Assembly: GCA_031258945.1 (NCBI GenBank)
Contig: JAIRME010000011.1
Coordinates: 1-38,968, forward strand
Direction: 5' to 3'
DNA: 38,968 nt
DNA from: Mycoplasmataceae bacterium
Lineage (GTDB): Bacteria; Bacillota_I; Bacilli_A; Mycoplasmatales; Mycoplasmoidaceae
Part shown: positions 3,944-30,838 of the stretch, piece by piece
Layout: each line of letters starts with the position of its first letter
Numbering within the stretch: position 1 is the stretch's first letter
Translations under genes and position numbers: made by a program
The notes under the pieces: generated by a model
Database searches by the model: none
What the model was told of the DNA's origin: nothing
The model's input: only the letters and a program-made list of their open reading frames with translations

Positions 3944-3958
3944 GTTATTATTAAAGTC

Positions 3959-5374
3959 ATGAATAAACTTGGCAAACGTCGTGAACCACTATTTGCTTTA
4001 GCTGCGTTGGGTCCAAATTTTTTAAACTTATTTTTTACGATTTATATTCAAAATGCTTTATTAGGTAAACTAAATGTCGGTTTTGATCCAAATGATACTT
4101 CACGTGTGATTGTTTCTATTAGCATTTTCACAGTTTTATTCACTATTACTAAAGTAGTAGATGCTTTATTAAATATTCCAATGGCTCATTTATCAGACCG
4201 CACCAAAAGCAGATGAGGACGACGTCGACCATGTATTTTACTTGGAATGGTAGGGTTAATTTTGACCTATTTGGCTTTATGTAATCCAATTTCTTTAGCT
4301 GAAGGTAGTATATCTAATGTCGTTTATTTCTTTTTTATTCTGTTGATTTATTTTACAAGTTATTGTTTGTGTCTTGAATCGTTTTATGCATCATTCCCTG
4401 AAATTACTTATGATGTACAGGCTAGAATTAGGTTGACTAATTGAAAAGCTTTTTATGACACAATTAGTTATTCAATCGGTTATGCATTACTACCAGTTAT
4501 TTTAGGCTTTTTAACAGGTGTGAGTATGCGCTGAATCGGTATGAGCATTACTCCGTTGATGTTAACAATGCTAATTCCGTTGTTTCTAATTAAAGAACCA
4601 GCATCATACATTATTTCTTATCAAAATCATAAAAAGACCAAAATAAATTCTAAGCAGGTGCAAGAAAATGAAAATGTTGGTTTTTGAGAATCAATTAAGA
4701 TTACTTTGGGTAATCGTCCTTTTTTGGTTTGAGTTTTGATTTTTGCATTGTTTTATTTTGGTCTAGATTTATTTTTGCAATCACAAATACCGTTAGCACA
4801 ACAATCGATGGGTTTGAATAGTTGGCAAACAACGGTGATTAATACAGCCTCTTTTGCCCCTATACCTTTAATGTTATTTATTAATAAAAAAATTATGAAT
4901 AAATGAGGTTTTAAAGTTTCCTTTATGTTAGCTATTTTGTCATTTATCATTGCAATGTCAACATTTATGATAGCCTATAAAAATTGGATTAACTCACAAT
5001 ACATAATTTTAATAGTTGCTGCCATAGGTTCAAGTATCGGTAGTTTTGGTTTAACTACTTTTTTCTCTGCACCATATTTAATTCCTTCACAAATGGCAAA
5101 AGAACAGACTGATAAAAACAATAAAGCTAATCAAGCTATGTTTTTTGGCATACAAGGTATCGTGGTAGCCTTATCGAATGCTTTAAATGAACCAGTGTGA
5201 ATTAATGTATCTCAAATTGGCGGGAAAGAACATCCAGAATATGGCCCACATATTACTACATATATTGTAATTGGTATTTGTACACTGGCATTAATTGCGG
5301 CTTGCTTTATGCCAAAACATTTTAAATATATAGGTAAAAAAAGTGCGATAGATACTTATGCAGAAACTAAATAA
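3959..5374 (+). CDS. GPH-family (MFS_2) cation symporter-like transporter
   Basis: A 471-residue integral membrane protein with about 12 hydrophobic segments, in one frame with many TGA-Trp codons. The cytosolic loop between helices 2 and 3 reads HLSDRTKSRWGRRRP, which matches the D-x-(S/T)-x-x-(K/R)WGRRRP signature of the glycoside-pentoside-hexuronide (GPH) family. That family includes bacterial sugar symporters, and the same MFS_2 fold is used by the animal lysophospholipid carrier MFSD2A. The gene starts 15 bases after the ligase-carrier gene, and its end overlaps the first acyltransferase by 17 bases, so it belongs to the operon. In this context a lysolipid, fatty acid or glycolipid precursor is as plausible as a sugar. 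The family is strong, the substrate is open. Confidence 0.82.
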
Positions 5375-6026
5375 TGTTTATCACGAGAAATGATATCGAA
5401 ATTTATTCCGTTGATTTATGAAAATAACTGGTTGATTCCCTTCGTGAATTCTTTTCAAACCAAAATATTATTATGAAAATAGAAAAATTCAAAAACGTTG
5501 AATTAAAGATAATGCAATTATTGCTAGCAATCATCGCACTACTTTAGATCCGTTTTTATTAATGTTTGTTTTCACAACTCGTTATTTACATTGCATTGTG
5601 GGTGAATTTATTTATGAAAACATTCCCTTTGTAGGTACGATACTTGATTTATTTGGTTCTATTAAAGTAGAACGCTTTACTGCGAATCCTGATTATTTAA
5701 ACGTTTGTAACAACATTCTAAGCAGTGGAGGTATCATTCAAATCTATCCAGAGAGTCATTTGCCTAAACCTAATCAAACAGAGTTATCTCCTTTTAAATC
5801 ATCGGTAATTTTAATGTCTATCCAAACGCGTTCTCCCATTATCCCTATTTACCATTGTGGCAATTATGGTTTATTCAAACGCGAAAAAATCGTTATTGGT
5901 GTACCGATGCACTTATATGAAAATTGTCAACAAATTAATCCAACTGTGGAAAAATTAAAAAAATTCACTAAAATCTTAGAAGACAAAATTAATCAATTAA
6001 AGTTGATGGTGTCACATGATAGATAG
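5358..6026 (+). CDS. PlsC-type 1-acylglycerol-3-phosphate acyltransferase-like protein
   Basis: A 222-residue acyltransferase of the LPLAT/PlsC superfamily. Block I is SNHRTTLDPF, with the catalytic dyad His59 and Asp64 in the NHX4D pattern. Block II is GSIKVERF, with an arginine expected to bind acceptor phosphate (Arg106). Block III is IYPESH (129-134) in place of the usual FPEG. ATG 5358 lies inside the end of the transporter gene and gives the typical N-terminus MQKLNNVYHEKWYRNLFRWF, with aromatic and basic residues. Later ATGs (5418, 5562) would cut off this region or the catalytic block. The enzyme should transfer an acyl chain from a carrier or CoA donor to a lysolipid at the membrane. 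The acceptor is unknown. Confidence 0.85.
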
Positions 6027-6660
6027 GAAAAATAAGCGTTTTTATTGATTACTACACTTATGTAAGGTTTTAGCATGGCCATCATGATGAATTATTTATC
6101 ATCGTAGATATCATTACATGCCTAATGCTTTTAGGCGTGCCAAAATTAAAGGACCAGGTATTGTGATTTGTAATCATAATCACTGAATTGAACCACCGTT
6201 AATTGCTTATACATTTCCCTTTCGTACAATCGTTTTTATTATTTCTAATGTCCTGTCAACAAATTGATTTGGAAAATGGTTTTTCAATCAAATTGGCACA
6301 GTTGTTATTAATAAAAAAGAATTTGAATGAAATAATTTTAAAAAAATTATTACAATGTTGAAACAGGGAAAATTAGTGTTAATCTTTCCGGAAGGAATTA
6401 TGAATAAAAGCGAACAATTAGTCGATTTTAAAGAAGGTTTGGTAACAATTGCTCATTTAGCTAATGTTCCAATTTATCCTATTTATATCGCTAATAAACA
6501 TAAACCGTTACGTCTCCAACATATCATGTTAGGAGAGACAATTAATTTGAACCAAAAATATCAACAACTTAACACACAAACATGTAGTGCCATGACTAAA
6601 TTATTATGAGAATATATTAATATTATGAAACATCAATTGGAAAGTGAACTACATAGATAA
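6016..6660 (+). CDS. Second PlsC-type acyltransferase, variant HX4E block
   Basis: A 214-residue member of the LPLAT/PlsC superfamily. The start ATG 6016 overlaps the end of the previous acyltransferase by 11 bases, indicating translational coupling. Block I reads CNHNHWIEP, so the dyad is His54 and Glu59 instead of the usual His and Asp. Block III is a canonical FPEG (124-127). The arginine normally present in block II is missing (IGTVVINK). An aromatic N-terminal segment (FYWLLHLCKVLAWPSWWIIY) is probably membrane-associated. Two adjacent acyltransferases with different signatures suggest different positions or acceptors, as with PlsB/PlsY and PlsC roles. Whether the Glu variant is catalytically competent is untested. 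Confidence 0.82.
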
Positions 6661-6662
6661 CA

Positions 6663-8156
6663 ATGGGAATCTCTAAACTAGGTTATCGAAAATATTGAAC
6701 TGAACCAATGCCACAAAGTGAAATAGATTGATTGGAAGCTAATGGACACATCAATACCATTAATCAATTGTTAAATTTTATTGATAAATATGGTAAGAAA
6801 ATTGCTATTAGTAGTGTTCAAATACAGAAAACATATCACGAATTATTACAAGATGTTGGGAAAGCCAGAAATTATTTATCAAAAAATGGAATTAAAAAAG
6901 GGAATTTGGTAGGAGTGCAAATGGACAATGAATATCTATTTATTGTAATATTTTTGGCAATAACTACTATTGGTGCTATAGCTAATGTTTTTCCGGTACA
7001 AATGCCTAATCAATTAGTAAAAAATATTTATCAAAAACATAAACTTAAATTGTTAATTTATAGTAAACGATTAGCAGAAACGTATACTAATTTTGCTTTA
7101 AATATTATTTCAGCTAACGATGTAACTGACATTCAACCCACTCTATCAGTTGAGGTTCAGGCAAATGACTTGGCGGCATTATATTTTACTGGTGGCACGA
7201 TAGGGAAACCTAAAGCAGTTATGTTAACACATAAAAATTTGATGCGTGGGATGACAAACGGAGCATATGGCTTTAGTAAAATTCTGCATCTTAAATATTT
7301 AACGATTATTCCATTTTTTCATGTATTTGGTTTGGTACGAAGTATGTTAACTCCTTTATACACGGGAAGCGAAAATTACCTTTGCACAGATTTTAATAGT
7401 TTTTTGCCAAATTTAAAGATTACTAATCCTAATTTAATATGCATTACTCCAGCAATGTTGGAGATGGTTTGTTTTTTTGGACAACAAGATATGAACTTAA
7501 TAGGTAATAATTTAAAAACGATCGTAGTCGGGGGAGCTAATGTTCCGTCAAATTTGCTTTCACAAGCAAATACATTGGGTATTTATACGTGTCAAGGATA
7601 TGGGTTAACTGAAACAGCTAATTTAGTTTCTGGCAATCGTTTTCCAAAGAAAAATCCCAATTCGGTTGGTGAAATATTTGACTTTCAAGAGATTAAAATA
7701 GTTAACCGAGAATTATGAATTAGCGGTGAAAATATTTCCCCTGGGTACTTCCAAGATACATTATCTAATATATTATCCTTTGAAAAAAAATGATTTAAAA
7801 CCGGTGATTTAGTATCCTATAAAAATAATCAACTTTATATCATCGGTCGTCTAAAAAATTTAATTATTTTGAAAAGTGGAGAAAAATTTTCTCCCGAGGA
7901 AATTGAATCTAAAATGAATAATTTTTCATTAATAAAAGATAGCTTAGTTTATTTGAAGAATGATCAAATCATTCTTGAAGTTTATCCGCGTGATGTCAAA
8001 AATATTATGAGCACACAAATACGCGACTACAAAATTAAAATGTTTTTTCAAAAAATAAATAACAGTTTACCCACATTTATGAATGTGAATGAATTAATCA
8101 TTCGTACACATGATTTCGAGCGATCACCGGCAATGAAAGTATTGCGCATACAATAA
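6663..8156 (+). CDS. Second acyl-AMP ligase (ANL superfamily), stand-alone
   Basis: A 497-residue adenylate-forming enzyme without a fused carrier. It carries TGGTIGKPK (176-184) as P-loop, GYGLTETA, WFKTGD, IIGRLKNLI followed by GEKFSPEEIE, and a C-terminal SPAMKVLR whose lysine fits the catalytic A10 position. Family members make acyl-AMP and pass the acyl group to CoA or to a carrier protein. It starts at ATG 6663, two bases after the second acyltransferase, and is followed 32 bases later by a free carrier protein, its likely partner. That makes it a probable acyl-ACP synthetase, reminiscent of the ligase half of Aas. Substrate chain length cannot be read from the sequence. Confidence 0.87.
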
Positions 8157-8188
8157 TTTTGTAATATATTTAGCTAGCACATAACACT

Positions 8189-8440
8189 ATGATAGAGGAA
8201 TTGGTTAAGATATTCAAAAAGGTAATGCCTGATAATAGAATGAACTATGGAATAATTAATGAAAATAGCAAATTATTCAATGATATTTGCCCCAATAGTA
8301 GTTCATTAATTATGGTTGCTTTTGCAATTGAAAAACAATATCATATTTCCTTACCTGGTTATTTGGAGATTCGTAAAGCTACAGTAGGAGATATCATTAA
8401 AATAATTCGGATAGAATTGTCCAAACAAAAAGATGCTTAA
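8189..8440 (+). CDS. Acyl carrier protein-like, atypical NSS site
   Basis: An 83-residue protein of carrier-protein size and helical pattern. Aligned by eye with E. coli ACP, DICPNS (32-37) matches DLGADS, and the following helix SLIMVAFAIEKQY matches helix II. Ser37 is therefore the expected phosphopantetheine site, but the invariant DSL is NSS here. Unlike classical ACP it is not strongly acidic and ends in a basic helix. It sits between an acyl-AMP ligase and an Sfp-type transferase and overlaps the latter by eight bases. The odd site may make it a dedicated carrier recognised by the neighbouring transferase and not by AcpS. An inactive carrier fold is the alternative. Confidence 0.75.
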   Translation: MIEELVKIFKKVMPDNRMNYGIINENSKLFNDICPNSSSLIMVAFAIEKQYHISLPGYLEIRKATVGDIIKIIRIELSKQKDA

Positions 8441-9035
8441 AATTTACATTGCTAAAATACCAACAAAAATTATTAAACGCAAGATACCCACTTCTCTTCT
8501 AAACGAGATTAACCAATACATGCATCCACAAGCGCGCCTACAAAAAAATGCTTCGTACTTGTTATTAAATATTGTTTTGAATACACATCACATATGAAAC
8601 AAGGATATTAGTGTTAACGAATATGGTAAACCTTCGTTAATTGGTAATCAAATCTATTTTAATTTATCCCATAGTGGTGAATACATAGTCTGTGCAGTTG
8701 CCAATAATCCAATTGGAGTTGATATCGAGTTTACTAATTCTCACATTAAAAGCATTTCTAGCGCCTTTCTAACAAAAAATGAAGTACAAACATACATTTC
8801 CTTATCTAATCAAAAACTAACGCAAATATGGGCAATAAAAGAAGCGATTGTTAAATTATTAGGTGTTGGATTGAGTAAAAAACTAAGCACTATATCGCTT
8901 GCATCTTTAAAAATTAACAATAAACGTTTGTACACGTTTAAGAAAACATTTCGTGCCTACCATCACTTGCAATTTGCTCTCGCTAGTTATGTTCAACTTC
9001 CCAAGAAAATTAACCTTATAAAAGTAAAACTATAA
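8433..9035 (+). CDS. Sfp-type 4'-phosphopantetheinyl transferase
   Basis: A 200-residue protein, intact when one TGA is read as Trp. It shows the Sfp/Gsp/HetI signatures in order: YGKP (64-67), FNLSHSG (77-82), GVDIE with metal-binding Asp97 and Glu99, and WAIKEAIVKLLG (133-144) with Glu137. The enzyme moves the phosphopantetheine arm of CoA onto a carrier serine. It is the last gene of the operon, and its ATG overlaps the carrier gene's stop region. The operon encodes two carrier domains, its obvious substrates. Mollicutes usually rely on the small AcpS-type enzyme, so a dedicated Sfp-type one is notable. Family identification is strong; carrier specificity is inferred from context. Confidence 0.9.
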
Positions 9036-15833: not shown

Positions 15834-16882
15834 AAATAAAAAGTGTAAAGGATGTGGAATGCCTTTATCGACTAACATTCAAGATTTAGCTTATACACCG
15901 AATCTTAAACTAGATTATTGTCAACGTTGTTTTCGTCTAAAACATTATGGTATTAATTCTCATAATGAGTTATCTGTATTGACCGTTAATAAGGTATTAG
16001 ATAATTTAAAAATTCAAACACGTGATTGAATTGTCTTGGTTAATGATGTTTTAAATGTTAATTTTGAAGTTATAGAACGATATAAAAATCACTCAAAAGT
16101 TTTATTTGTATTCAATAAAGCTGATCTTGTGGTTAATAATTTCAATTATCAAAATGTACAAAGACGTTTAATTAAGATGTTAATAAATTTAAGCATCAGA
16201 ACGCCTCAAGTTATCATCTCGTCAGCTACTAATAACTATGGGATTCGTAAAATATTTGAATTTATCAGAGAACGAGAATTAAATGAAAAAATTTATTTTG
16301 TTGGCAAAACCAATTCTGGTAAATCATCAATTATTAATGCTTTAATAAATTACACTGGCAGTATCGTCGCACCATTGACTATTAGTAACTTACCTAATAC
16401 AACAATTGGGCTTAAACAAATTAAATTGCAAAAACATAATATCATCGATACACCGGGCTATTATAGTGAACATAGCATTTTACACAATCTAACAAATTTG
16501 AAAGATGTTGCTTCAATTCAGAATAAACAGAAAATTAAACCTTTTTCTTTTCAAATTATTCAGCCACAATCTTTCATAGTAGATAGTTTGCTTTGATTGA
16601 CAACTACAAATGATAAATTGGCATCAATTGTATTTTATATGCCAAATAAATTGAAAGTGCAACGCACTAAACCAGAAAATTTATTACGTAATTTAAAAAA
16701 TCCATTAAATAACGTTTATCATGTTAATAATTGTGAAAAATTAACGCAAGAATTAATTTTAAAACCAAATATGAAATATGATTTAATGATTGAAGGTTTA
16801 GGAATGATTGTGGTTCAAGGTATTGAAAAACTTATTGTAAATACCTTTAAAAATGTAAAGTTGACGTTGTTAAAAGATTGGA

Positions 16883-16890
<8 letters not shown>
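15814..16890 (+). CDS. yqeH: YqeH circularly permuted GTPase
   Basis: A 358-residue GTPase acting in 30S ribosomal subunit assembly. An N-terminal zinc finger has two CxxC pairs (Cys11/14 and Cys36/39). The GTPase motifs come in permuted order: NKAD (G4, 101-104), SSAT (G5, near 136-139), GKTNSGKSS (G1, 164-172) and DTPG (G3, 212-215). This G4-G5-G1-G3 order is diagnostic of the YlqF/YqeH group. A C-terminal domain with a conserved late GLG follows. TGA-Trp codons occur at 16027 and 16594. The last eight bases overlap the 3' end of the convergent mnmA gene. Confidence 0.94.
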
Positions 16891-18061
<1,171 letters not shown>

Positions 18062-20089
18062 CTAATATGCAACAATGATTTGTTTCATATATGAGGTGAT
18101 ACTGCCTGTATTGTCAATCACATCAGCTTTTAAAGTAAAGCTATAATTACCAATAATTAGTGAACTAGTGCTAGGGAAACGCACTAAACATGTCCCTCGT
18201 GTAGTGCCAGTAGTTTGGTTATCATCAATTCTTAAATTCGAGCCAAATATTGGATCTGGGTCTACAATACTTCAAGTAATATTTTTAGTAATAGAATTCC
18301 AATTAATGTCATCCATGAAATATTCAGTATTATTACCATCAGAAAAATCAATGTTAGCTGGTTCAATTAAGTTGGGGCCAAAAATATGATCGTCTTTTTG
18401 CGTTAAAAACGGTAAAATAGAATTACTATTTTCAATATCTGTTCCAATTTGATAAACTTTATTTATGTGTTGTTCATAAGAAATAATTGAATTGAGGTTC
18501 CATGTTTTCTCAGCAAAAGTTGCAATACTTTTGAAAGTACCTTGATAAACTAAATCTTGTGTTTGTCTAGTGTAATAATCGCATCAAATGCAATAATAAG
18601 CTCCTTTATAAAAAGGTAAATATGCTTTTGGTAAATCAGCAATAGTTTGCGAAAATTTATAGAGATTTCAATCATTGAATATTTGATTAGGTTCTGGCTT
18701 TTGCATACCAGCACTTAAAACATAATACAAATAATCGTCGTTAAGATTGTACAAATGATATCCATTAGCAGCAAGTTGATTAATTGTCGCATATTTACCG
18801 GATGATGAATTAGTTCAATAAGCTACTTGAATATTTTTATCAGGTAATATTGTGGGAGTAATGTTACTTCAATCATAAAGAAATTGATCATTAAATGCTC
18901 TTACTTGGTGGTAACCTTTTTCTACAAGTAAGTTATAAATTTCGTTCATTCAATCGTTCAATGTATCAAAACCTGTAGCATTTATGGCAGGAACATCTAG
19001 AACGTCAATGGCATACTGTTTTAAAGTATTGCTATAACCAATAGATGTAGTTGAATCCATCCTTTCATATGGGATAAATTCATCAAATCCAATATTAAAT
19101 TTGCGACAACCAAGATCGTGAAAAAATTGACTATATTCGATATACAAGTTTTTTATATAGGACCTTGCATTATTATTAGTGATATCAATCGCAGCAGGAT
19201 AATCAACACTACTACCAGCATTATTTTTCAAAGTAATATCTTCACCTTCGTGGTTGTTAGAATATCATTCAATGATTCATCGAGCATGTCCAGGCATATC
19301 AAGTGAAGGGATAATTTCAATTTGATGTATTTGTGCAAAACGAACAATATCCATCATTTCTTCTGCACTAATAAATCTTTGATCAAAACCAGCTCTTGCT
19401 CCAGCCAAATTGAAAAATTGATTTCCTTCTGGTAATTGTAAACGCATACAACTCAATTCAGAAAAATGTAATTCTATAGTGTTAATTTTTTTGTAAGCAG
19501 CTTCTACAATTAAATTTTTGACTCACTTTGGGGTAAAATATTTACGCCCACAGTCTAAGTGAATAGTGCGTTCTGCAATATCGGGATAATCCAATATATC
19601 GCCGTAATAAATTTTGTTATCGCTAATTTTATAAATTTGCATTAAAGTATTAAAGGCATATAAAACACCTCTTAAACCATTAGCGTTGATAATAATTTTG
19701 GAAGAAATATTGATGGCGTAAGTATCAGGTAAAGAAGAAGCATTAACTAAATCATTTGCTACATTAACCCGAATACTATGATCTATCACAGAGGAATCAT
19801 TAACTAGTTGAATTTTGCCAAATGTTATTCCGGCATCCATTAATCGTTGCTGAATCAAATACAGTAAATCAGTCAATCCGGATATTTTAGCATCGTAAAA
19901 AATTTTTGAATTAATTGCAAAATTAAATGAATTAGCGGAAATATTTTTATATTCTTTAACAGTTGGTAATAGTTGTTTTTGAATATTTTTGTAATCAAAG
20001 TTAGCACAAGAAGTGAGAGTACCAATGCTTCCTCCAATAATTGTAGTGATTACAGAAGAGTTAATTATTAATGATTTAATTTTTTTCAT
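18062..20089 (-). CDS. Surface lipoprotein, GH20 family beta-N-acetylhexosaminidase
   Basis: A 675-residue lipoprotein. The signal sequence ends in LTSC (Cys28). Residues of about 40-150 resemble the GH20 N-terminal accessory domain. The TIM barrel starts near HLDCGRKYF and includes IIPSLDMPGHARW. The catalytic Asp336-Glu337 pair lies in NIGFDEF, matching the GH20 substrate-assisted Asp-Glu pair. The last 110 residues or so look like an Ig-like beta domain. GH20 enzymes remove terminal GlcNAc or GalNAc from glycans. It is last in the murQ operon, ten bases after the GHL10 gene. It may replace the NagZ-type enzyme found beside murQ in other Firmicutes, with chitin or host glycans as alternative substrates. 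Confidence 0.87.
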
Positions 20090-20099
20090 TTTTCAATTC

Positions 20100-22097
20100 C
20101 TATAATTTTGTTGTAATTTTTAATATATGTTGATTAGCTTGATTGCTAACTTGGTTGGCTAATGAATTTGCATATGTTTGATTACGATAAGTTAAATTAT
20201 GATTTAAATCAGTAATGCTAAAAAAGATGCTCCCTTCATAAGCAATATTACTTGTAGCATATTGGATACAATGTAATATCTCTTCAGCATTACCAAATGA
20301 TGACAAATTGTATAAGTATTCATTATTTGCATAATTAAAATCAGATGCTTCCATATAACGATAATTGGGGTGGCCAATATAAAGTTTGGTTCTACTACCA
20401 CTTTGTAATTTAACATTTGCTCATCAATCAAACAGTTCAACAAATGGTCCGCTTTTATATTGCGCATTTCAATACAATTGGGGGCAAATGTAATCCAATC
20501 ACTCTTCTTCTATTCATTTTTTTGAATCGTAAAATTCATCATGAAAAGTGCTCATAGAAGTGGTTGGTGTATTAGAACCATCGGGGGTATCAGTAAACTT
20601 ATTACTAGATCAAATACCACCAGGACTAATACCAAAAACTACATTACGATTAGGATTGTTGGTATTAAAATCATTTATAGTGTCATGAATTGCTTGTATT
20701 AAATCATCATTATTTTTACGCCTTCAATCATCAATTGTTAAGCCACTACCATATTTATTATACGAAGCTTGATCTAATGGTTCGCCATATTGACCCATGA
20801 AATTTTTAAAACTGATATTTTGTATATTATCATTTTGCAACTTTCAATCACCATTTTCATCTAATTGAATGTTATTATTCTCATCCCGCGTATAATTGTT
20901 ACGTCATGAAGTGGCATATGGATAAAAATAATCATCTAGATGAATGCCATCAACATCATAATTATTTAAAATTTCCTTAATTGAATCAACCACATAGCTT
21001 CTCACATCTGGTTCGCCAGCATTTAAATATAAAGCACCACCATACTTGTAAACCAAATTTGGGTTAGCAGTTACTCTAGTTTCACCTCCTGGAAGTTGTT
21101 GGAATAGCCAATTTAAAACATTAGGATTCGTAGTATTATTTTTTGCTAATTGCCCTTGTTCGTTTAACTTATCAGTAAAGTTGTCAAAATTTAAATAATC
21201 ATATCAACTCATGTTACGACCATTAGAATCAACAGCATAATCTATACTAGAAACACGATAAGGGTTTAATCAAGCATGATATTTTACACCTGCTTCGTGA
21301 GTTTTACTAACCATATATTGTAACGGATCAAAACTTTGCAATCAGTCAAGGGTATAACCTTGCGAACCAACGAGATATGTGGAATATGGGTTGATTGAAG
21401 ATTTATAAAAAGCATCCATCATTGGGCGTATTTGAAAAATGACAGTATTCATTGAATAATCAATATATGTTTGTAAAAAATTATCATACTCTTTTACAAA
21501 TTGTTCTTTAGTTAAATTATGCAAATTAGTAGATTGAATCGGGGTATTTCAGCCTTCGGCATGTGTGTAGTTGTACAAAAAATTCATATTTCTGACTGTG
21601 GCAGTTCACGTAGATTTCATGTATTCAGGATGTTGAATAATCAAATCATCAGGAAACAATGCTAATGCGGTATCGTTACCATTGATTTTGACATAGGCAT
21701 CAGTGTAAATTTGATCAATATTATCGAAAATACGTTGATGATGTAGTGCGATTGGTTCAATGTTTATATTTAAAATATTACTAATTGCTACATCTTCATT
21801 AAAAACTTGTAATTTTACTTTTTTATGGGTTTTGCTAATGTTTTTTAAATAAAAATTAAATTGATTATTTTTTGGATCATAAGTTGATGTTATTATGTCT
21901 TCGTGCGAACTGACTAAATGAATATTTGAATATTTAGTCGTATTACCACTAACTTTGACAGCGTTGTTTTGATTAGGATAAGATATGGTTTGGTTTGGTA
22001 CGACAATGCTTAATGGAAAAACGGAAGTGCAATTAGTCACAATTGGAGCGGTTATTGGAGCGATAGAAATAGGAAGAATAAATTTTGCTTTTTTCAT
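20100..22097 (-). CDS. Surface lipoprotein, glycosyl hydrolase-like 10 (YngK/DUF187-type)
   Basis: A 665-residue lipoprotein with a signal ending in VTNC (Cys23). A beta-rich, Ig-like segment (about residues 30-125) precedes a TIM-barrel domain of the GHL10 family from about residue 165. Diagnostic blocks are MNTVIFQIRPMMDAFY, HAWLNPYRV, VDGIHLDDYFYP, FGISPGGIW and WLDYICPQLYW; the acidic pair in HLDDY is a likely catalytic or ligand site. Members are predicted glycan hydrolases found in Bacillus and gut bacteria. It starts one base after the serine hydrolase gene in the murQ operon, implying a role in glycan or peptidoglycan breakdown at the cell surface. The exact bond cleaved is unknown. 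Confidence 0.85.
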
Positions 22098-22098
22098 A

Positions 22099-23595
22099 TT
22101 ATTTATCTTTCAAACTATTGCATGCCTCATATACTCAATTACTAATTACCATACCGATGCGGTTAGCACTATCAGTTGTTCCTTTTGGTAAAAAATAACG
22201 ATGTTTACCAAAGAAAATGTTGCCGTTAGAATCATGATCATAAAGTATGGTATGAATGGAATTAGTTAGGATACAAATAGTCAAATGATTAATAGGGTCT
22301 ATTACAGTCATAGTTCCCGTTCACCCATCATGGCCATAAGTTACATTTGGAGCATAATCGCCAAAAATATAATCGTTATAGAAACTGAAGTTCGTTTTTC
22401 ATCCTGTAGCAAATTCAAAACGATTACCCTCCGGATTAACAATAGGTGTGGTTACATCTTGTACTATTTGTTCATTAAAAAAAGTATTGGATCCATACTT
22501 ACCATTATTTAGCATTACATTCATCAAAACGGATAACTCTAAAGCAGTTGAAAATAAGCCAGCATGACCAGAAGCACCTTGCATACAATAAAAAGCCTTT
22601 TCATCATGTACTTCACCTTGGATAGTCTTTGTTCTGCGCATATCGGGGAATGTTGGAACTTGAAATTCTCTTGAATTACCTAATAGTTCTGTGGCAGCAC
22701 AATCATTTTTTGAGAATCCTTTTTGCAAGGGATTAAAAACTGTATGACGCAAACCCAACGGTTGATAGATTTCATTTTCTGTATATTCATCAATTCATTT
22801 ATTAGTAATTGCGTGCACTAAAATATCAACTAACATAAAATCAACATCACTATAAAGTTGCTTAGTGCCAGGAACAGTTTGTAAATCTAACATTAATATT
22901 TTTTCTAATGCTTGATTTTTATCACGTAATAAAAATACATCATCGGTACCACCAGTTAAAAAAACTCGTGGATCAGGAATAAAACCAGAAGTATGGGTTA
23001 AAATTTGGCGAATGGTAATAGTTCCCCATTGCACTGTTTGAGTTTTTTTAGTTAAACTATTAAAAACATTGAATTGTTCTTTTGTAAAATTGGGAATATA
23101 TTTACTAATAGGATCATCTAGTGATTTTATTTTTTTGTCATATAAAAGTTTTTGGATTGCAAACATCCCGGCATACATTTTGGTATTAGAAGCTAAATCA
23201 TAAAGTGTTTCAGTCGTAGCATTCACTTGTTGATCTGTTGGCAATAATTCACCATAATGGGGAATAGGTCATGAGTTGATTTCAATATCACCTCGGGAAT
23301 AAAGTAATGATTTACCAAATGCTTTGTTGTAAACAATTTTGTTGTCTTTTGTGACACAAATTTGCATACTGGGAAAACCATAAGCTTCACTACTGCTACC
23401 ACTAATAGTTTCGGATAATTTAAAATTCACATATTTATTAATTAAATCTAATTTATTTTTATCAAAACCAGCTGCGCTAGGGTTATTAGTGTAATCTTCT
23501 AGCATAAAATTAGAGGAGCAAGAAGTTGTATTAAGTGCGATGCTGCTTGTCAAGACAGAAATACTAGGGATTAAACTAGTTATTTTTTTATTCAT
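22099..23595 (-). CDS. Lipoprotein serine hydrolase of the beta-lactamase/class C PBP family
   Basis: A 498-residue lipoprotein (signal ending TTSC, Cys26) with the serine beta-lactamase fold. SNTK gives the catalytic Ser136 and Lys139, YSD (Tyr248) is the second motif, and a late GHDGW provides an HxG third motif. HTSGF and LGLRHT segments are typical of the esterase/amidase branch. It starts one base after murQ. In the Bacillus murQRP operon a protein of this fold also sits beside murQ and is linked to removing peptides from MurNAc, so an amidase or peptidase acting on imported wall fragments is plausible. Antibiotic hydrolysis is unlikely to matter in a wall-less cell. Function is inferred from context. 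Confidence 0.82.
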
Positions 23596-23596
23596 T

Positions 23597-24511
23597 TTAT
23601 TTTAAACACTCCCTTAGCATACCGCGGTGTTTTTTTAATAGTTGTTTAGCTTGCCCATAGTTCAAATTCTTTTTAATCATAATTACAGCAGGTTTTACTT
23701 GGTTATGAGTAATAGACATAATTTTTTTTATATCCTTATCATTTGCTTTAGTGATTCTTTTAACTAAATTAAATGCACGTGTAACTAATTTGAGATTAGT
23801 TGGTTGTACATCCACCATCAAGTTACTAAAAACTTTACCAATTTTTATCATTGCACCAGTGGATAATGTATTTAAAATCATTTTTTGAGCAGTACCAGAT
23901 TTCATTCTAGTAGAACCAACTATGGTTTCAGGACCAGTGATTGCCTCAATTTTAATTTTGGCTATTTTGCCAATTTCAGAATTATGACTTGTAGCAATAC
24001 TAATAGTTTGACAACCTAATTTATTAGCATAGATTAAACCACTAACAACATATGGTGTTCTACCGCTTGCACTAATACCGACTAACACATCTCTTTTATT
24101 TAATCGAATGTCTTTTAAGTCGTTAATAACTGCTAGTTGATTGTCTTCTGCTCCTTCAATTGGTTTGCGAATCGCTGCATCTCCTCCGGCAATTAATCCA
24201 ATTACTAACTTGTCACTTACTCCATAAGTCGGTGGCATTTCACTAGCATCTAACACACCTAATCTACCGCTTGTACCGGCACCAATATAAATTAATCGTC
24301 CACGATGATTGAAAGCATAAACAATTTTGTCAATAGCAATAGCAATATTTTTTAATTGTGATTTAACTGCTAAAGCTATTGACTGATCTTGTTTGTTGAT
24401 AAGATGCACCAATTGGATAGTTTTTAAAGTATCAATATTTTTAGTTTGATGATTAACACCTTCCGTAGATATATTTGATAAGTCTATATACTTAGAGGTG
24501 AAATTACTCAT
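23597..24511 (-). CDS. murQ: N-acetylmuramic acid 6-phosphate etherase
   Basis: A 304-residue cytosolic SIS-domain enzyme that removes the D-lactyl ether of MurNAc-6-phosphate to give GlcNAc-6-phosphate. It has the family start NISTEGVNHQT, IYIGAGTSGRLGVLDASEMPPTYG, VGISASGRTPYV, and TRMKSGTAQKMILNTLSTG. Length matches the family and no Trp codons are needed. It leads an operon with three secreted hydrolases. A PTS EIIBC gene is encoded just across the divergent promoter. TATAAT lies six bases before the ATG. MurNAc is specific to peptidoglycan, so this gene ties the cluster to wall-fragment use in an organism that should have no wall. Confidence 0.95.
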   Translation of the reverse strand: MSNFTSKYIDLSNISTEGVNHQTKNIDTLKTIQLVHLINKQDQSIALAVKSQLKNIAIAIDKIVYAFNHRGRLIYIGAGTSGRLGVLDASEMPPTYGVSDKLVIGLIAGGDAAIRKPIEGAEDNQLAVINDLKDIRLNKRDVLVGISASGRTPYVVSGLIYANKLGCQTISIATSHNSEIGKIAKIKIEAITGPETIVGSTRMKSGTAQKMILNTLSTGAMIKIGKVFSNLMVDVQPTNLKLVTRAFNLVKRITKANDKDIKKIMSITHNQVKPAVIMIKKNLNYGQAKQLLKKHRGMLRECLK

Positions 24512-24517
24512 TTAATC

Positions 24518-24523
24518 ATTATA
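24518..24523 (-). promoter_or_regulatory. -10 box of the murQ operon, six bases before the ATG
   Basis: A perfect TATAAT on the minus strand, followed by GATTAA and the start codon. The geometry is identical to nadD and mnmA and predicts a leaderless mRNA. Confidence 0.6.
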
Positions 24524-24545
24524 TGTAAATTTTAACTATAAATAG

Positions 24546-24551
24546 TATAGT
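24546..24551 (+). promoter_or_regulatory. -10 box of the small membrane protein/PTS unit
   Basis: TATAGT on the plus strand, then AAAAGGGT and ATG 24560. The eight-base gap leaves at most a base or two of leader. The 48-base divergent spacer with murQ is the place to look for a shared regulator site. Confidence 0.45.
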
Positions 24552-24559
24552 AAAAGGGT

Positions 24560-24811
24560 ATGGAATTTGTGGATCAAAAAAAGCAAAAAGAAGAGATTGG
24601 ACATTGACACATTTTAAATGCTAATCAAAAACGTTTGGTTTACTTAGGTATGATTATTGGAATGTTAATTGCTGTGATAGGCGTTACTTTTCTTTCACTT
24701 GGATATTCAATTATTGTAGGCTGTGTATTGGCAGGTATCGCAGTTTTAGCTTTAATAGCGGTTAGCATTATTTGGTTATTATGAATTCATCGTATTCGTA
24801 AGAAAAATTAA
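24560..24811 (+). CDS. Small two-helix membrane protein, unknown function
   Basis: An 83-residue protein visible only with TGA as Trp (GHWHI, LLWIH). A charged N-terminus (MEFVDQKKQKEE) leads into two hydrophobic helices at about residues 28-50 and 53-75, separated by a Gly/Cys turn (IIVGCVLAG), and ends in HRIRKKN. It is divergent from murQ and 57 bases upstream of the PTS gene, probably cotranscribed with it. No family was recognised; a helper of the permease or a stray small membrane protein are both possible. Confidence 0.65.
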
Positions 24812-24868
24812 ATAGGTTGATGTTTTTACGAAATTTATCGAGTGAGCAAAAAAGGTGGGTGGGGAATC

Positions 24869-26446
24869 ATGACACAAGATTACAATAAAATAGCAAAAGA
24901 TATATTTGATGCAGTTAAGCAGTATGGTATTGTTAGTGCGGATATATGTATGACCAGATTACGTATCAAACTTAAAAATAAAAAAGTAGACTTATCAAAA
25001 TTTAAAAAAATTCCAGGTGTAATGAGTGTCGTAGCAGCCGATGATGAATTTCAATTCGTCATCGGTCCTGGAGTAGTTAAAAAAGTTTATGCTAGTTATA
25101 AACAATTATTAGCAACCGCAGAGATTAAAACAGAATACGGTGCGCCAAGTTTAAAAGAAATAGCTAACCAAGTTAAAAATGAAAATAAAAGTAAAAGACA
25201 GTCAAATTTAGTGGCGATTGCATTAAGCAAATTTGCTAAAATATTTACTCCATTAATTCCTGCTTTTATTGCTGCAGGTATTTTAGCAGGAGTAGCAGGT
25301 ATACTACAATCAATATATACTAGTGTATTAATTGATGGAACGCGAGCGTGAACGAATACCACTGCATATGAATGGTACAATTTATTTAATTTATTGCTTA
25401 CTGCTTGACAGACTGGTTTTTTAATTATTGTTGGTTATCGTTTTTCGGAAGCATTTGGTGGAAACGGTTGAATTGGAGCGTTAATTGGTGCTATTTTTAC
25501 ACCGCTGGCTGGTAGCGCATTTGCAGCTATGTACAACCCTGATGCACAAACATTTTTAGGAATTCATGTATTAAAACAAAATTTAAATACGTTTTGATTA
25601 ACTAGTGGTTTAGTGACTTTAGGTAATGATGGTGTACCGAGTGGAATTGGAACGGCTCATGGCTCTATTTTTGGTATTATTCTTGGTTGTACAATAGCAA
25701 TTTACATAGAAAAATATATTACGAAAGTAATGCCTGTGCAGTTGGATACTGTTATTACACCATTCATGACTGCATTATTCATGGTGTTTATCAATATCTT
25801 TTTAATTATTCCAATTTCTGGATATATGTTTTTCGGTATGACTTGACTATTTAGTCATTTATGTAAAGGCCCAGGAGCACCGTTTGGTGACATGGTGTTA
25901 GCGGCATTATTTCTTATTGCTGTGATGTTTGGAATTCATCAAGGTTTTGTTCCGATGTATGTAGCAATGATTCAAGACCCAAACATTGGGATTAATATAT
26001 TATTTCCTGTGTTAGGATTGGCTGGTGCTAGTCAAGTAGGGTGTGCCCTAGCAATGTGAGCAATAGCTAAGAAAAAAGGGATACTACGAAGACAAATTCA
26101 AGGTGCAATTATTCCAGGTTTTTTAGGTATTGGTGAACCATTGATATATGGTGTTTCATTACCTCGAATTATACCTTTTATATCGGCTTGCATCGGAGCT
26201 GCTATACCAGGATTTTTTGTTGGAGCAATGAATGCTTGGGGTGGCATTGATATGGGATTAAATTCCATTTTTGGCCCAAGCGGTATATTGGCTATTCCAA
26301 TGATTACTAGCGCTAAAGGGATTGGTATGGGAATTTTAGTTTATGTATTAGCTTTATTTATCGGATATGCATCTGGATTCGCGACTGGTTGGCTAGGTTA
26401 TCGTATATTTAAAAACAACCCTAAAATTAATTGAAACTTAGAATAA
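24869..26446 (+). CDS. PTS EIIBC component, MurP/sucrose-trehalose class
   Basis: A 525-residue phosphotransferase permease. The N-terminal EIIB domain has its phospho-cysteine at Cys27 in ADICMTRLR. From about residue 115 an EIIC domain of roughly ten helices follows, with [13 protein letters not shown]-like loops and the hallmark GIGEPLIYG (420-428). No EIIA is fused, as in MurP and SacP, which borrow the glucose EIIA. ATG 24869 is preferred over GTG 24842 because it gives the usual EIIB start [13 protein letters not shown] and has a G-rich stretch upstream. Its position opposite murQ makes MurNAc the likely substrate, with sucrose, trehalose or GlcNAc as alternatives. Confidence 0.85.
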
Positions 26447-26464
26447 CACATTTTATATTTTTCA

Positions 26465-26470
26465 TATAAT
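26465..26470 (+). promoter_or_regulatory. -10 box of the phosphate operon
   Basis: TATAAT in the 50-base spacer before pstS, 26 bases from ATG 26497, so this transcript has a short leader of about 20 bases. No -35 or obvious regulator palindrome was found, and there is no Shine-Dalgarno before the ATG. Confidence 0.45.
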
Positions 26471-26496
26471 CTACTGCGAATTGAACATTCACAACC

Positions 26497-27729
26497 ATGA
26501 AACGTTGAATCAAAAATACAAGAACGGTTGCCCTATGCTTAATCCCCATAGGTTTAGTGACTGCTTTCTCTAATAGTTGGTCCAATAAAATACCTATTTC
26601 TTGTGTTGGTTCTAGTGGTGTCAAACCATTCGTAGAAAGTCTTTCCAAAGAATACATGAAAGCCAACAAAAAAGTCGATATCACCGTTGAAGCTGGTGGG
26701 AGCGGTTTTGGAATTCAACAAATTTCACAAGGTTTCGCTAACATTGGTAACGCTTCAAAAGATCCTTATAGTGCAGTTTATGGTAAAGATGATAAGGGAA
26801 CTGATGGTTTTAGATCACAATGAGAAAAAAATAAAATTAAAACCATCACAATTGGTTGAGAAGCAATTTGCATGGTTTACATTCCACCTAAAGAATTGAA
26901 TTTAAATCCAGATGAATTAAATAATATTTTAGTAGTCAACAATAGTAATGTGTGTAACTTAATGCGTATATTTAGTGGCATTAATTCAAACGTTACTGAT
27001 GCAACATTAGGGAATTTTTATAATGATCAAGCAGATTTAACTCCGTCTCAACAACAATTATTAATGAACACTAGTATTATTCCATATGTAAGAGCCGGTG
27101 GATCACTAACATCAGGAACTGCTTCATCGTTTGTAGGGGGAACTCATTTAAATTTTAATGAGAAAAATGATTTAACAGTAGCACAACAAAATGCCTTTGA
27201 TAGTGGTTATTATGGAACAAAATTTGGTTTAGTTCAAACTGATGAAGCAAATAGTCGTGCATGGGATATATTTGCTAAAAACAATAAACCTGGACAAATA
27301 GTTTATTTATCTTCAGGTTTTGTTAAACAAAATTTAGATTTAATCAAATCCAAAGGGTATGGTATCATGGCATATGATGGTAGCGAAACTCAAACGAACC
27401 CAACAAGTTTTGATGTCAATTTCATTGATAGTCATGATGGTTACAATTGATTTAGGCCACTTAATTTAATGATTCCTGTTACAAATAACGAATCGTTTAC
27501 TACTGAGATGAATTTTATTAAAACTTTATTATCGGATGAATACAAAAATAAATTAATAGAAATTGGTGCTAAGTATTTAAATACAGAAGAAATTGAACAA
27601 ATATTCCCTAACGATATTTCAGGAATTTGAAAATCCGATTATCAATTAGCAAAAGAAAAGGAAGCAGATTGAAATTGACCAAAAGATTATAATTTTGCTC
27701 CTATCCCATCGGGAATATCTGACAATTAA
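26497..27729 (+). CDS. pstS: Phosphate ABC transporter substrate-binding protein PstS
   Basis: A 410-residue binding protein anchored by one N-terminal hydrophobic segment (residues 10-25). Phosphate-site motifs are VGSSGVKPF near the mature start, EAGGSGFGIQQIS, and RAGGSLTSGTASSF, which supply Ser, Thr and Arg contacts. The cysteine at position 36 falls in the first beta strand, so a lipid anchor there is doubtful. The C-terminal region is in frame through several TGA-Trp codons (for example 27448 and 27628). It captures inorganic phosphate outside the cell and delivers it to PstCA-PstB. It is the first gene of a nine-gene run and is followed one base later by pstCA. Confidence 0.92.
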
Positions 27730-27730
27730 T

Positions 27731-29827
27731 ATGGCAAACGAAATTGTTAGTTTATTAAAAAAGAAACAAAGATCTGACAAGGTTTCTAAAACTGTTTCTT
27801 TGTCTTTGTCTTGGTTGTTTTCACTTGTTTTCTTTTTATTGATTATTTTTATTGTTGTAGCTGCTATTCCTGGTTTTAAAGCTTATGGTCTAAGCATTAT
27901 TAGCAATACATTTGATATGGCTAATAATAAAGCTAGTGTATGATTACCACTTTGTGTTACTTTATTAATTTCTGGATTAGCAATTATCATTGCGGCACCA
28001 GTTGGTGTTAAGACAGCGATGTTTATTAAATATCGATTACCAGTAAAATATCAAAAAGGTACACGAATTGCAATTGAATTATTGGCTGATATTCCTTCAG
28101 TAATTTTTGGTTTATTTGCTTGTGAAATGTTAGGAACTGTCTTGAAATATGTTTTTCATATGCCTACCTCATACAATTTGATTACAACAGGATTCATGCT
28201 AACTTTTATGATTTTACCAACGATTGTATCATTATCTTTAAATTCGTTGGATGGGGTGGATAAAACTTTAATTTCTGCATCTATGGTTTTAGGTAATACT
28301 AAAACTCGTTCTATTTACAAAGTATGCAAGAAGGATGCACGTAATGGAATTGCGGTTGGTGTCATTATTGCTTTTGCTAGAGCCATCGGTGAAACTATGG
28401 CTGTATCCATGATTTTACAATCACAAGGGTATAACCCCATTTTTGATGAAGGGTTTGGTTCTATTGCCACTAGTGGTTTAAGATCATTGGGTGCTTTAAT
28501 TGCCGCAAACATGTTTGCAGAAGGTGGTGGTCCTGCCCTACAATCATTATTATTTGCTTTTGGTTTATTTATGTTTTGTTTCGTTATGATCCTAAATGGA
28601 GTAGCAATGTATGCCACTAAAAAACGTAACAGGAGTAAATGAAAATGATGAAATACATTTGAAAAAAAATTAGGTGGATTCATCACTTTTATACCGATGC
28701 AGTTCAAAATTGGTTGAGAACATTTGACTTTTCAATCAAAGATTGATAAACGAAAAAACCTTTCTAAATATTTGTCAAACCGAATTCAAAAAAATCGTTT
28801 CGTATATGTGTATAGTTTTTATAAATTTTTTTGGGAAATATTCTCCATTACTTTAACAATGAGTTTTTTAGCTTGAATTACGATTGATATTATTGGGTTT
28901 GGGGGTGTAGCTTTGACGCAATCTACTGATAGCGTTTTTACTTTTACCAACAATTCTACTGGCCAAGCTTTTATGAATACAGTTTTGATTATCATAATTG
29001 CAATTGGCATCGGCATGCCACTTTCTTTGATGATAGCGATTTATTTAAACGAATTTGTCAAAGATGGTAAAGTAAAGAAAACCTTATTATTTTTCATTGA
29101 TTCATTGGGAGCGACACCATCTATTTTGTTTGGGATGTTTGGTTTAATCTTTTTTATTCAAACAATAGGTATGTCTGCGGGCGGTACGGCAGGTAAGTCG
29201 ATTTTGGCTGGAGCATTAACTATTTTAATAGTTATTTTACCAGTATTTATTCGCACTATTCAACAAGCATTACAATCAATTCCTAAAGATTTACGTACCA
29301 ATTCTTATGCTTTAGGTGCAGGTAAATGAGAAACAATTCGTAAAATTGTGTTACCAGCAGCACGCCAAGGTATTACCACCGCTATTATTTTATCTATCGG
29401 GCGAATATTAGCAGAGACTGCTCCACTATACTTGACGAGTGGTTTAACCTCTTCTAGTTCTATTTCCTTAGTTAATCCAGGTCAAACTTTAACTACAAGA
29501 ATTTATGCGCAAATTTATACGGCAAATATTCATGATGGCATCAATATTATGTATGAGTGTGCTTTTGTAACCATGATATTGGTATTATTAATTATTCTAG
29601 TTGTACATGTTGTTATTCCAAGTTACTATAAGCATAAACGTCGGCAATTAGAAATCCAAAGTAAAAATATTCGTAAAGAACAAGAAAAGTTTGAGCGTGC
29701 TCATCATTCTTTACAAAAATTATTCACTGTGAACGATATTCTTAAACGTAAAAATTATCATGTGGTTAGAAAAAGAAAACCAGCTAATAAACTGCACCAA
29801 AAAAAAGGTATAAGGAAAAAATCATAA
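27731..29827 (+). CDS. pstCA: Fused phosphate ABC permease PstC-PstA
   Basis: A 698-residue single polypeptide carrying both permease subunits. Residues 1 to about 300 are PstC, with DIPSVIFGLFACE, an EAA-like loop, and FARAIGETMAVSMIL. Residues of about 370-670 are PstA, with DSLGATPSILFGMFG, YALGAGKWETIRKIVLPAA and GRILAETAPLYLTSG. The join is a cytosolic linker read through TGA codons from 28640 (WKWW), with no stop in code 4. A pseudo-dimeric Pst permease is also known from Mycoplasma genitalium relatives. The C-terminus ends in a long basic tail (KRKPANKLHQKKGIRKKS). It forms the phosphate channel energised by PstB. Confidence 0.9.
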
Positions 29828-29860
29828 CTCTTTGAGTTAGTTATAATTAAAAGCAAGTTA

Positions 29861-30838
29861 ATGTTCAAAAAAAAAAAAAATAATTCAATTGAAATAGAAG
29901 CTGAAAGTATCGACAAGCAACAAGCAGATGCTAGTAAAGTTTCCAAAGTTTTGGCTAGACCGTTTTTAGCCAGAAATTTTAAATATTGATCGTTGACTCA
30001 ACCACAAAAAAAACTTTACAAACACATGTTACAGCAAAGTAAAAATGTAGATGCAATTAAAAAAGAATTTAATCGTGAAAATATTTTTGAAGTAGAACGT
30101 TTTAACTTTTGATATGATCATCGTGAAAAACATGCTTTGAAAGATATTAATATGCAGATTAAACGCAATAAAGTAACGGCTTTAATTGGACCTTCTGGTT
30201 GTGGCAAATCAACTTTCATTAGATGTCTTAACCGCATGAACGATCAAATTGATGGTATTTCATATGATGGTAATATTTACTTTGATAAAGGGATAAACTT
30301 AGTTAGTAAAAAATTAACTACATTAGAATTGACTACAAGGGTAGGTATGATTTTTCAAAAACCATCACCATTTCCTATGAGTATTTACGATAATGTAGCT
30401 TACGGTCCACGTTCACACGGCATTAATGAAAAGAAGTTATTAGATAATATCGTTGAAGAGTCATTAAAAGGGGCTGCACTTTGAGACGAAGTTAAACATA
30501 ATCTTTTTGATTTAGGCACTTCGCTCTCAGGTGGGCAACAACAACGTTTATGCATCGCTCGAGCCATTGCTTTAAAACCTGAAACACTATTGATGGATGA
30601 ACCAACTAGTGGATTGGATCCTATTTCCACTAGTAAAATTGAAATGTTAATTAACCAATTGAAGCAACAGTTTACTATTATTATTGTGACTCATTCCATG
30701 GCACAAGCACAAAGGATAAGTGATGAAACAGCTTTTTTTTGACAAGGGAGCGTAATGGAAATGGGCACAACGAAACAAATGTTCACTTCACCAAGAAACA
30801 AGAAAACGAGAGAATACATCTCGGGAAAGATTGGATAA
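29861..30838 (+). CDS. pstB: Phosphate ABC transporter ATPase PstB with N-terminal extension
   Basis: A 325-residue ABC ATPase. Walker A is GPSGCGKST (110-118), the Q-loop [14 protein letters not shown] is typical of PstB, the signature is LSGGQQQR, and Walker B is LLMDEP followed by TSGLDP. The ABC domain begins near residue 75, so an unusual lysine-rich extension of about 70 residues precedes it. ATG 29861 is in frame and follows the pstCA stop by 33 bases. Codons 3-7 lie in a run of 14 A. An internal start, such as the ATG at 30029, would give a more usual PstB length, so the true N-terminus is uncertain. The gene ends one base before the next ATG. Confidence 0.9.
29867..29880 (+). repeat. 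A14 homopolymer tract in the 5' end of pstB
   Basis: Fourteen consecutive A residues spanning codons 3-7 of the longest pstB reading frame. A change of one or two A would stop translation from ATG 29861 early, while an internal start would be unaffected. Such tracts are known slippage sites in mollicutes. Confidence 0.75.

Follow-up and report, generated by a model that had tools for sequence, protein, structure and literature searches.

A gene cluster for the probable scavenging of foreign peptidoglycan in a wall-less bacterium of the order Mycoplasmatales

What use does a bacterium that appears to have no cell wall make of genes for the catabolism of N-acetylmuramic acid (MurNAc), a sugar of peptidoglycan? 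The question is raised by a 38,968-nucleotide contig (JAIRME010000011.1, or C13; hereafter "the window", meaning this whole stretch) of a Mycoplasmataceae genome assembly comprising 835 kb in 46 contigs, with a completeness of 85.8%. The window encodes a cluster that combines the MurNAc-6-phosphate (MurNAc-6-P) etherase MurQ and a MurP-type transporter with a PBP4B-type serine hydrolase, a GHL10 glycanase and a GH20 hexosaminidase. The comparison sets were 36 genomes of its own genus and 320 genomes of its own order, in which this genome is G000. Because about 14% of the genome is unassembled, every absence reported for it is provisional and could be a gap. We consider it likely that the cluster serves nutrient scavenging of foreign peptidoglycan by a wall-less bacterium.

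The wall status of the organism is central to this reading. In profile searches, Mur ligases (PF01225) had no match in this genome (control positive in 10 of 14 genomes), and the MraY family (PF00953) had none in any of the 36 genus genomes (control positive in 12 of 14), as the first-pass annotation, made from the letters alone, had expected. The organism is therefore taken to be wall-less; these absences and the reading of TGA as tryptophan are the traits by which a wall-less member of the Mycoplasmatales would be recognized. Placement of the order as Mycoplasmatales agrees with its use of code 4, with the small size of its genomes and with the genes they contain. With TGA read as tryptophan (genetic code 4), the gene positions of the first-pass annotation hold: four packed genes on the minus strand (18062-24511), murQ, the PBP4B-type gene, the GHL10 gene and the GH20 gene, face a small membrane-protein open reading frame (ORF) and the gene for a MurP-type EIIBC on the plus strand (24560-26446). 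Under code 11, in-frame TGA codons, found in four of the five proteins, break every cluster gene except murQ. With best family E-values of 4.1e-28 or lower for each of the five proteins, these ORFs are not chance occurrences, and all five genes are complete and retain the conserved catalytic motifs. The minus-strand genes are separated by only 1, 1 and 10 bases (taking 22097 as the start of the GHL10 gene), and such spacing on a single strand suggests one transcript. Promoter and terminator scans of positions 16700-30000 yielded fewer sites than shuffled sequences (63 versus 80.1, and 4 versus 6.1, respectively) and are thus uninformative on the limits of the operon.

MurQ scores 382 bits against TIGR00274, passing the equivalog threshold of 302, and is 50% identical to the Escherichia coli enzyme. 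It belongs to the SIS fold and retains both glutamate-bearing motifs, with E91 and E122 aligned, at a constant shift of eight residues, with two acidic residues of E. coli MurQ that we take to be E83 and E114. For the transporter, the best NCBIfam model is that of the MurNAc EIIBC (NF007152; E = 3.9e-117, 392.4 bits), with the sucrose model far behind (E = 6.5e-59), in line with the MurP class assigned at first pass. The protein is 40% identical to E. coli MurP and has the structural features expected of MurP, namely, the lack of an EIIA, adjacency to murQ and a phosphorylatable cysteine in the ICMTR segment of EIIB. The small ORF has a counterpart 5' of murP in the congener G251 (L033, 7034-7207; 50% identity over 58 amino acids, E = 1.4e-15) and at best a weak match in G293 (L035, E = 0.13). 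The proposal that a MurQ-MurP pair handles foreign MurNAc in a wall-less organism is thus supported.

Each of the three hydrolases starts with a lysine-bearing hydrophobic stretch that ends in a cysteine (C26 in the PBP4B-type protein, C34 in the GHL10 ORF as listed, C28 in the GH20 protein) and that, judged by eye, reads as a putative lipoprotein signal. The first of these proteins, initially described only as a beta-lactamase-fold hydrolase, can be refined to the PBP4B type: its best model is NF002968 (E = 7.2e-113, 377.6 bits), it is 42% identical to E. coli YfeW over 425 positions, and its catalytic SxxK spans residues 136-139. By analogy, we propose that it is an amidase stripping stem peptides, in a role resembling that of AmiE; AmiE and the PBP4B-type protein presumably belong to one fold and family. 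Excerpts of the published work describe Bacillus subtilis AmiE as a MurNAc-L-alanine amidase (PMC5061867). Plasmid relatives do not settle the choice between amidase and carboxypeptidase: in plasmid records of Priestia and Salmonella, pbp4b has no murQ annotated close to it, and a 26% match falls within a Parabacteroides protein annotated as GH3, at most a hint of coupling with glucosaminidases.

The GHL10 assignment made at first pass is sound (PF02638, 117 bits against a cut-off of 27.9); what had escaped notice is the likeness to Cwp19 of Clostridioides difficile and DigH of E. coli, members of a family for which cleavage of peptidoglycan glycan has been shown. Cwp19 (PDB 5oq2) is the sole solved match (E = 5.7e-59), and identity to DigH, itself a GHL10 protein (453 bits), is 32% (alignment A1). 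The conserved core includes DDYFYP, in common with Cwp19 (DDYFY in DigH), together with WRR and Q-x-YW; the protein is predicted to act on peptidoglycan glycan. According to the excerpts available, Cwp19 produces anhydro ends where MurNAc carries a peptide and reducing ends on peptide-free MurNAc (PMC6016235), and DigH is a hydrolase specific for denuded glycans (PMC12288456). Acting as hydrolases on bare MurNAc, these relatives fit a scheme in which the amidase works first and AnmK is not needed. Among the order genomes, PF02638 was detected in only 1 of 320, that of the present organism (control 7 of 14). Tryptophan is encoded by TGA in 14 of 15 codons of the GHL10 gene and 9 of 11 of the GH20 gene, and their G+C content, 0.30, resembles that of the window, which indicates that both have long resided in a genome with TGA as tryptophan and are not contaminants. 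A scan of wider genome contigs with the GHL10 protein found only two distant loci (29% identity), in Paenibacillus and a Bacilli metagenome-assembled genome (MAG), by means of back-translated patterns that may miss genes with TGA for tryptophan. Alignment-free structure models were unusable for both GHL10 and GH20 (mean pLDDT confidence scores of 35.7 and 33.6, respectively).

The GH20 protein, correctly named at first pass, matches PF00728 with 99.2 bits (cut-off 22.3) and PF02838 with 26.6 bits, and contains the catalytic pair D336-E337 within a GFDE motif (334-337). Its plasmid relatives are all less than 60% identical, and none covers 80% of the protein. GH20 occurs in 10 of the 320 order genomes, including G251 and seven genomes of genus g31, all seven of which also carry a MurQ-like match under the cut-off. 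The G251 protein was considered as an orthologue of the window GH20 and rejected, as tblastn with the latter missed it at E-values up to 1. In one g31 genome, G093, two giant side-by-side ORFs of 1,574 and 1,584 amino acids have GH20 matches (L115, 3339-12792).

The downstream genes are found elsewhere in the genome. On contig C41, nagA (22714-23838) adjoins nagB (22022-22654), with a second nagB and a glucose/N-acetylglucosamine (GlcNAc)-type EIICB placed divergently beside them; a third nagB-like match is on C35, and a glucose-type EIIA (C39:33930-34322) adjoins enzyme I (EI) of the phosphotransferase system (PTS). Thus, the three components that the first-pass annotation had expected, nagA, nagB and a glucose-type EIIA, are all present. 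The GH3 family of NagZ (PF00933), missing from the layout described then, was not found in this genome either and is represented in 2 of the 36 genus genomes, whereas no match for AnmK was obtained in any of the 36.

These components can be arranged in a pathway. Outside the cell, the PBP4B-type lipoprotein would strip stem peptides off MurNAc, the GHL10 lipoprotein would cleave the denuded chains at MurNAc-GlcNAc bonds, for the most part hydrolytically, so that reducing MurNAc ends remain, and the GH20 lipoprotein would remove GlcNAc from non-reducing ends, exposing MurNAc. MurP would then import MurNAc as MurNAc-6-P with shared EI, HPr (not searched for) and EIIA, and MurQ would convert it to GlcNAc-6-phosphate (GlcNAc-6-P) and D-lactate; NagA and NagB would pass GlcNAc-6-P on to fructose-6-phosphate and glycolysis, and free GlcNAc would enter through the separate glucose/GlcNAc-type EIICB. 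If the peptide is stripped first, reducing MurNAc ends, exposure by GH20 and import by MurP can follow, and neither AnmK nor MupG would be needed. The specificities of the enzymes, the order of the steps, the surface location and the regulation are all predictions from sequence.

Features of the cluster and the basis of their assignment (positions in the window)
Feature	Position	Strand	Basis and remarks
GH20 hexosaminidase, putative lipoprotein, 675 aa	18062..20089	-	PF00728, PF02838
GHL10 glycanase, Cwp19/DigH-like, putative lipoprotein	20100..22097	-	PF02638; listed ORF start 22130, likely Met start 22097
PBP4B/YfeW-type serine hydrolase, putative lipoprotein	22099..23595	-	NF002968, YfeW identity
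MurQ, N-acetylmuramic acid 6-phosphate etherase, 304 aa	23597..24511	-	TIGR00274, E. coli MurQ identity
Small hydrophobic membrane-protein ORF, 83 aa, 5' of murP	24560..24811	+	counterpart in G251
MurP-type PTS EIIBC (MurNAc)	24869..26446	+	NF007152; listed ORF start GTG 24842, start 24869 likelier

The cluster lies wholly within one contig and is flanked on both sides by housekeeping genes (subunits of gyrase/topoisomerase IV type, MnmA and a phosphate-type ATP-binding cassette transporter set). Elsewhere in the window, a cluster at positions 2027-9035 encodes a transporter of the MFS_2 sugar type, a pair of acyltransferases, a phosphopantetheinyl transferase and two AMP-binding enzymes, one of which has a phosphopantetheine site; such an acyl-carrier set seems out of the ordinary in a wall-less genome of small size. 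Within the murQ-murP cluster, neither murR nor NamZ (presumably the product of B. subtilis ybbC) was found, the search being confined to the cluster.

Among characterized systems, several share the core of this one. The closest three-gene match tested is E. coli murQ-murP-yfeW, with proteins 50%, 40% and 42% identical to those encoded here and the same logic of MurNAc uptake by the PTS followed by MurQ, which supports MurNAc scavenging. It differs in that murR is divergent in E. coli, whereas no murR adjoins the present genes, in gene order, and in the addition here of GHL10 and GH20 in an organism without a wall. The first-pass annotation had drawn the parallel to the Bacillus murQRP operon; this stands for the MurQ/MurP logic, although Bacillus is not the only counterpart. 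As in the B. subtilis murQRP-amiE-nagZ-ybbC operon, where, according to excerpts of the source, outside enzymes release MurNAc that MurP and MurQ consume (PMC5061867), hydrolysis would precede uptake; unlike in that operon, the GH3 enzyme NagZ was not found, and GH20 and GHL10 are present instead. The Staphylococcus aureus mupG-murQ-murP-murR locus shares MurP and MurQ, whereas no MupG was found in the present genome. Cwp19 and DigH share the GHL10 domain and core with the protein studied here, and both serve the wall of their producer, which is lacking in this case. Among wall-less bacteria, excerpts of published papers report murP and murQ for MurNAc use in Spiroplasma (PMC4607517, PMC5726471, PMC12453411) and a MurNAc PTS in Hepatoplasmataceae, which are said to be able to use debris of walled bacteria (PMC10928387); Hepatoplasmataceae MAGs from Rimicaris are described as free of carbohydrate-active enzymes (PMC9636832). 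These excerpts, which for Spiroplasma cover murP, murQ, nagA and nagB, resemble our case in wall-less MurNAc catabolism and differ in that they name no set of surface peptidoglycan hydrolases.

How is the cluster distributed among relatives? MurQ exceeds the cut-off in 35 of the 320 order genomes (63 at E <= 0.001, a threshold that takes in other SIS proteins) and in 5 of the 36 genus genomes, the present one included. Of 30 short order loci, 21 have a murP-like gene no more than 1.5 kb from murQ (the window copy included; L017 is a partial match). Of the 20 wider stretches, mostly 13 to 20 kb with one of 10.7 kb, L032, L033 and L034 also contain one, and L031, L039, L040 and L050 do not. In G253 and G246, murP, the PBP4B gene, murQ and mupG follow in this order on one strand; in G251, murP and murQ-PBP4B are convergent. 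The G251 PBP4B gene (L033, 8917-10388) is split into two frames beside an intact murQ, which could represent a frameshift, a pseudogene or an assembly error. Near murP-murQ, G009 and G011 (L037, L038) carry extra diverged MurQ/SIS-like genes with about 21-28% identity to the window MurQ. In the MurQ tree, the window copy groups with that of G247 (100/98), then with G251 (100/99), and the five genus copies form one group (95/91), a pattern expected from vertical descent within the genus.

The usual partner of MurQ among the congeners, unseen at first pass, is MupG. Its C-terminal domain (PF05913) is present in 94 of the 320 order genomes, in 4 of 4 MurQ-positive congeners and 0 of 31 MurQ-negative ones (Fisher p = 1.9e-5, uncorrected for kinship), and order-wide in 29 of 35 MurQ-positive genomes versus 65 of 285 others (p = 4e-12, likewise uncorrected), several times as a neighbour of murQ. 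The present genome is the only MurQ-positive one in the genus without a MupG match, which sets it apart from an S. aureus-type pathway; here, the GHL10 and GH20 genes follow murQ-PBP4B. According to excerpts of one paper, MurNAc-6-P-GlcNAc brought in by MurP is cleaved in S. aureus by MupG, the family of which also includes paralogues with different functions (PMC6262408). This paper does not mention mollicutes, mycoplasma or spiroplasma, and nothing on MupG in mycoplasma was found among Creative Commons-licensed papers.

Several observations weigh against peptidoglycan scavenging by the proposed route. The EIIBC is below the equivalog cut-off of its model (392.4 versus 516 bits) and is therefore named MurP-type rather than proven MurP; the PBP4B-type protein misses its own narrowly (377.6 versus 385 bits), as do NagA (224.8 versus 225.65 bits) and NagB (220.8 versus 236.9 bits). 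The amidase step is the weakest link of the scheme: the literature presents E. coli PBP4B as a penicillin-binding protein, and an amidase role for the PBP4B branch is drawn by analogy. GHL10 could be a true lytic transglycosylase, the product of which, anhydroMurNAc, would be lost without AnmK. We also considered recycling through such a transglycosylase and an anhydroMurNAc kinase, and set it back because AnmK was not found in the 36 genus genomes. MupG, NagZ or AnmK may reside in the unassembled part of the genome, and the lone occurrence of GHL10, resting on a single assembly, is provisional. G247, with the nearest MurQ, has no PBP4B match, no murP within about 9.5 kb on either side and no other cluster gene in the 20 kb around murQ; besides the present organism, five MurQ-positive order genomes lack MupG (G002, G009, G011, G204 and G312), and these have no GHL10 either. 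Finally, it is possible that GH20 serves host glycans.

Scavenging of foreign peptidoglycan could also take a bolder form, namely, a switch from the inside route through MupG to an outside surface route of amidase, GHL10 and GH20, which would make the organism a primary peptidoglycan degrader and perhaps bacteriolytic; lacking a wall, such a degrader could not damage itself. The present genome seems to strip and cut the glycan outside and to import MurNAc itself, and we put the full switch forward tentatively. Ordinary MurNAc salvage as in Spiroplasma is an unlikely explanation. On this view, only murP-murQ, with or without PBP4B, would serve MurNAc use, and GH20 and GHL10 would act on host or dietary glycans (mucin oligosaccharides, chitin), the shared operon reflecting convergence on GlcNAc-6-P. 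Consistent with this, the nearest solved chain to the GH20 protein is the lacto-N-biosidase TrpyGH20 (E = 2.7e-19), GH20 occurs without GHL10 in nine other order genomes, and the genome has a separate GlcNAc/glucose EIICB; however, the characterized GHL10 relatives Cwp19 and DigH act on peptidoglycan, and the GHL10 gene sits between those of PBP4B and GH20 in the murQ operon. We regard it as improbable that the main task of the lipoproteins is to disarm host-alarming muropeptides or to kill competitors by lysis, feeding being incidental: glycan-opening enzymes at the surface of a cell unable to harm itself would, on general grounds, suit such tasks, but the partners murQ and murP are catabolic, and nagA, nagB and PTS parts are present. 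A decaying relic of ancestral wall recycling, which the patchy spread of MurQ and the split PBP4B gene of G251 might suggest, is very improbable given five intact window genes with conserved catalytic motifs and a GHL10 whose occurrence in a single order genome looks like a gain.

The core inference of the first pass, feeding on wall fragments, with the gut as a conjectural habitat, stands without being novel: papers on wall-less relatives have already described MurNAc use (excerpts of PMC4607517, PMC5726471 and PMC10928387), so that MurQ in a mollicute is no surprise. What looks new is the set of surface hydrolases and the apparent replacement of MupG by GHL10 and GH20, although the literature on GHL10 in mollicutes was not searched. 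The usual picture of wall-less bacteria is one of organisms living on ready-made sugars; if peptidoglycan is indeed dismantled outside the cell, this one would be a degrader of its neighbours' walls, and a single genus would offer a simple comparison of the MupG route with the GHL10/GH20 route. Given the link between MupG and MurQ across the order, the MurNAc use reported for Spiroplasma may really be use of MurNAc-GlcNAc, and wall-less MurNAc users may often import this disaccharide.

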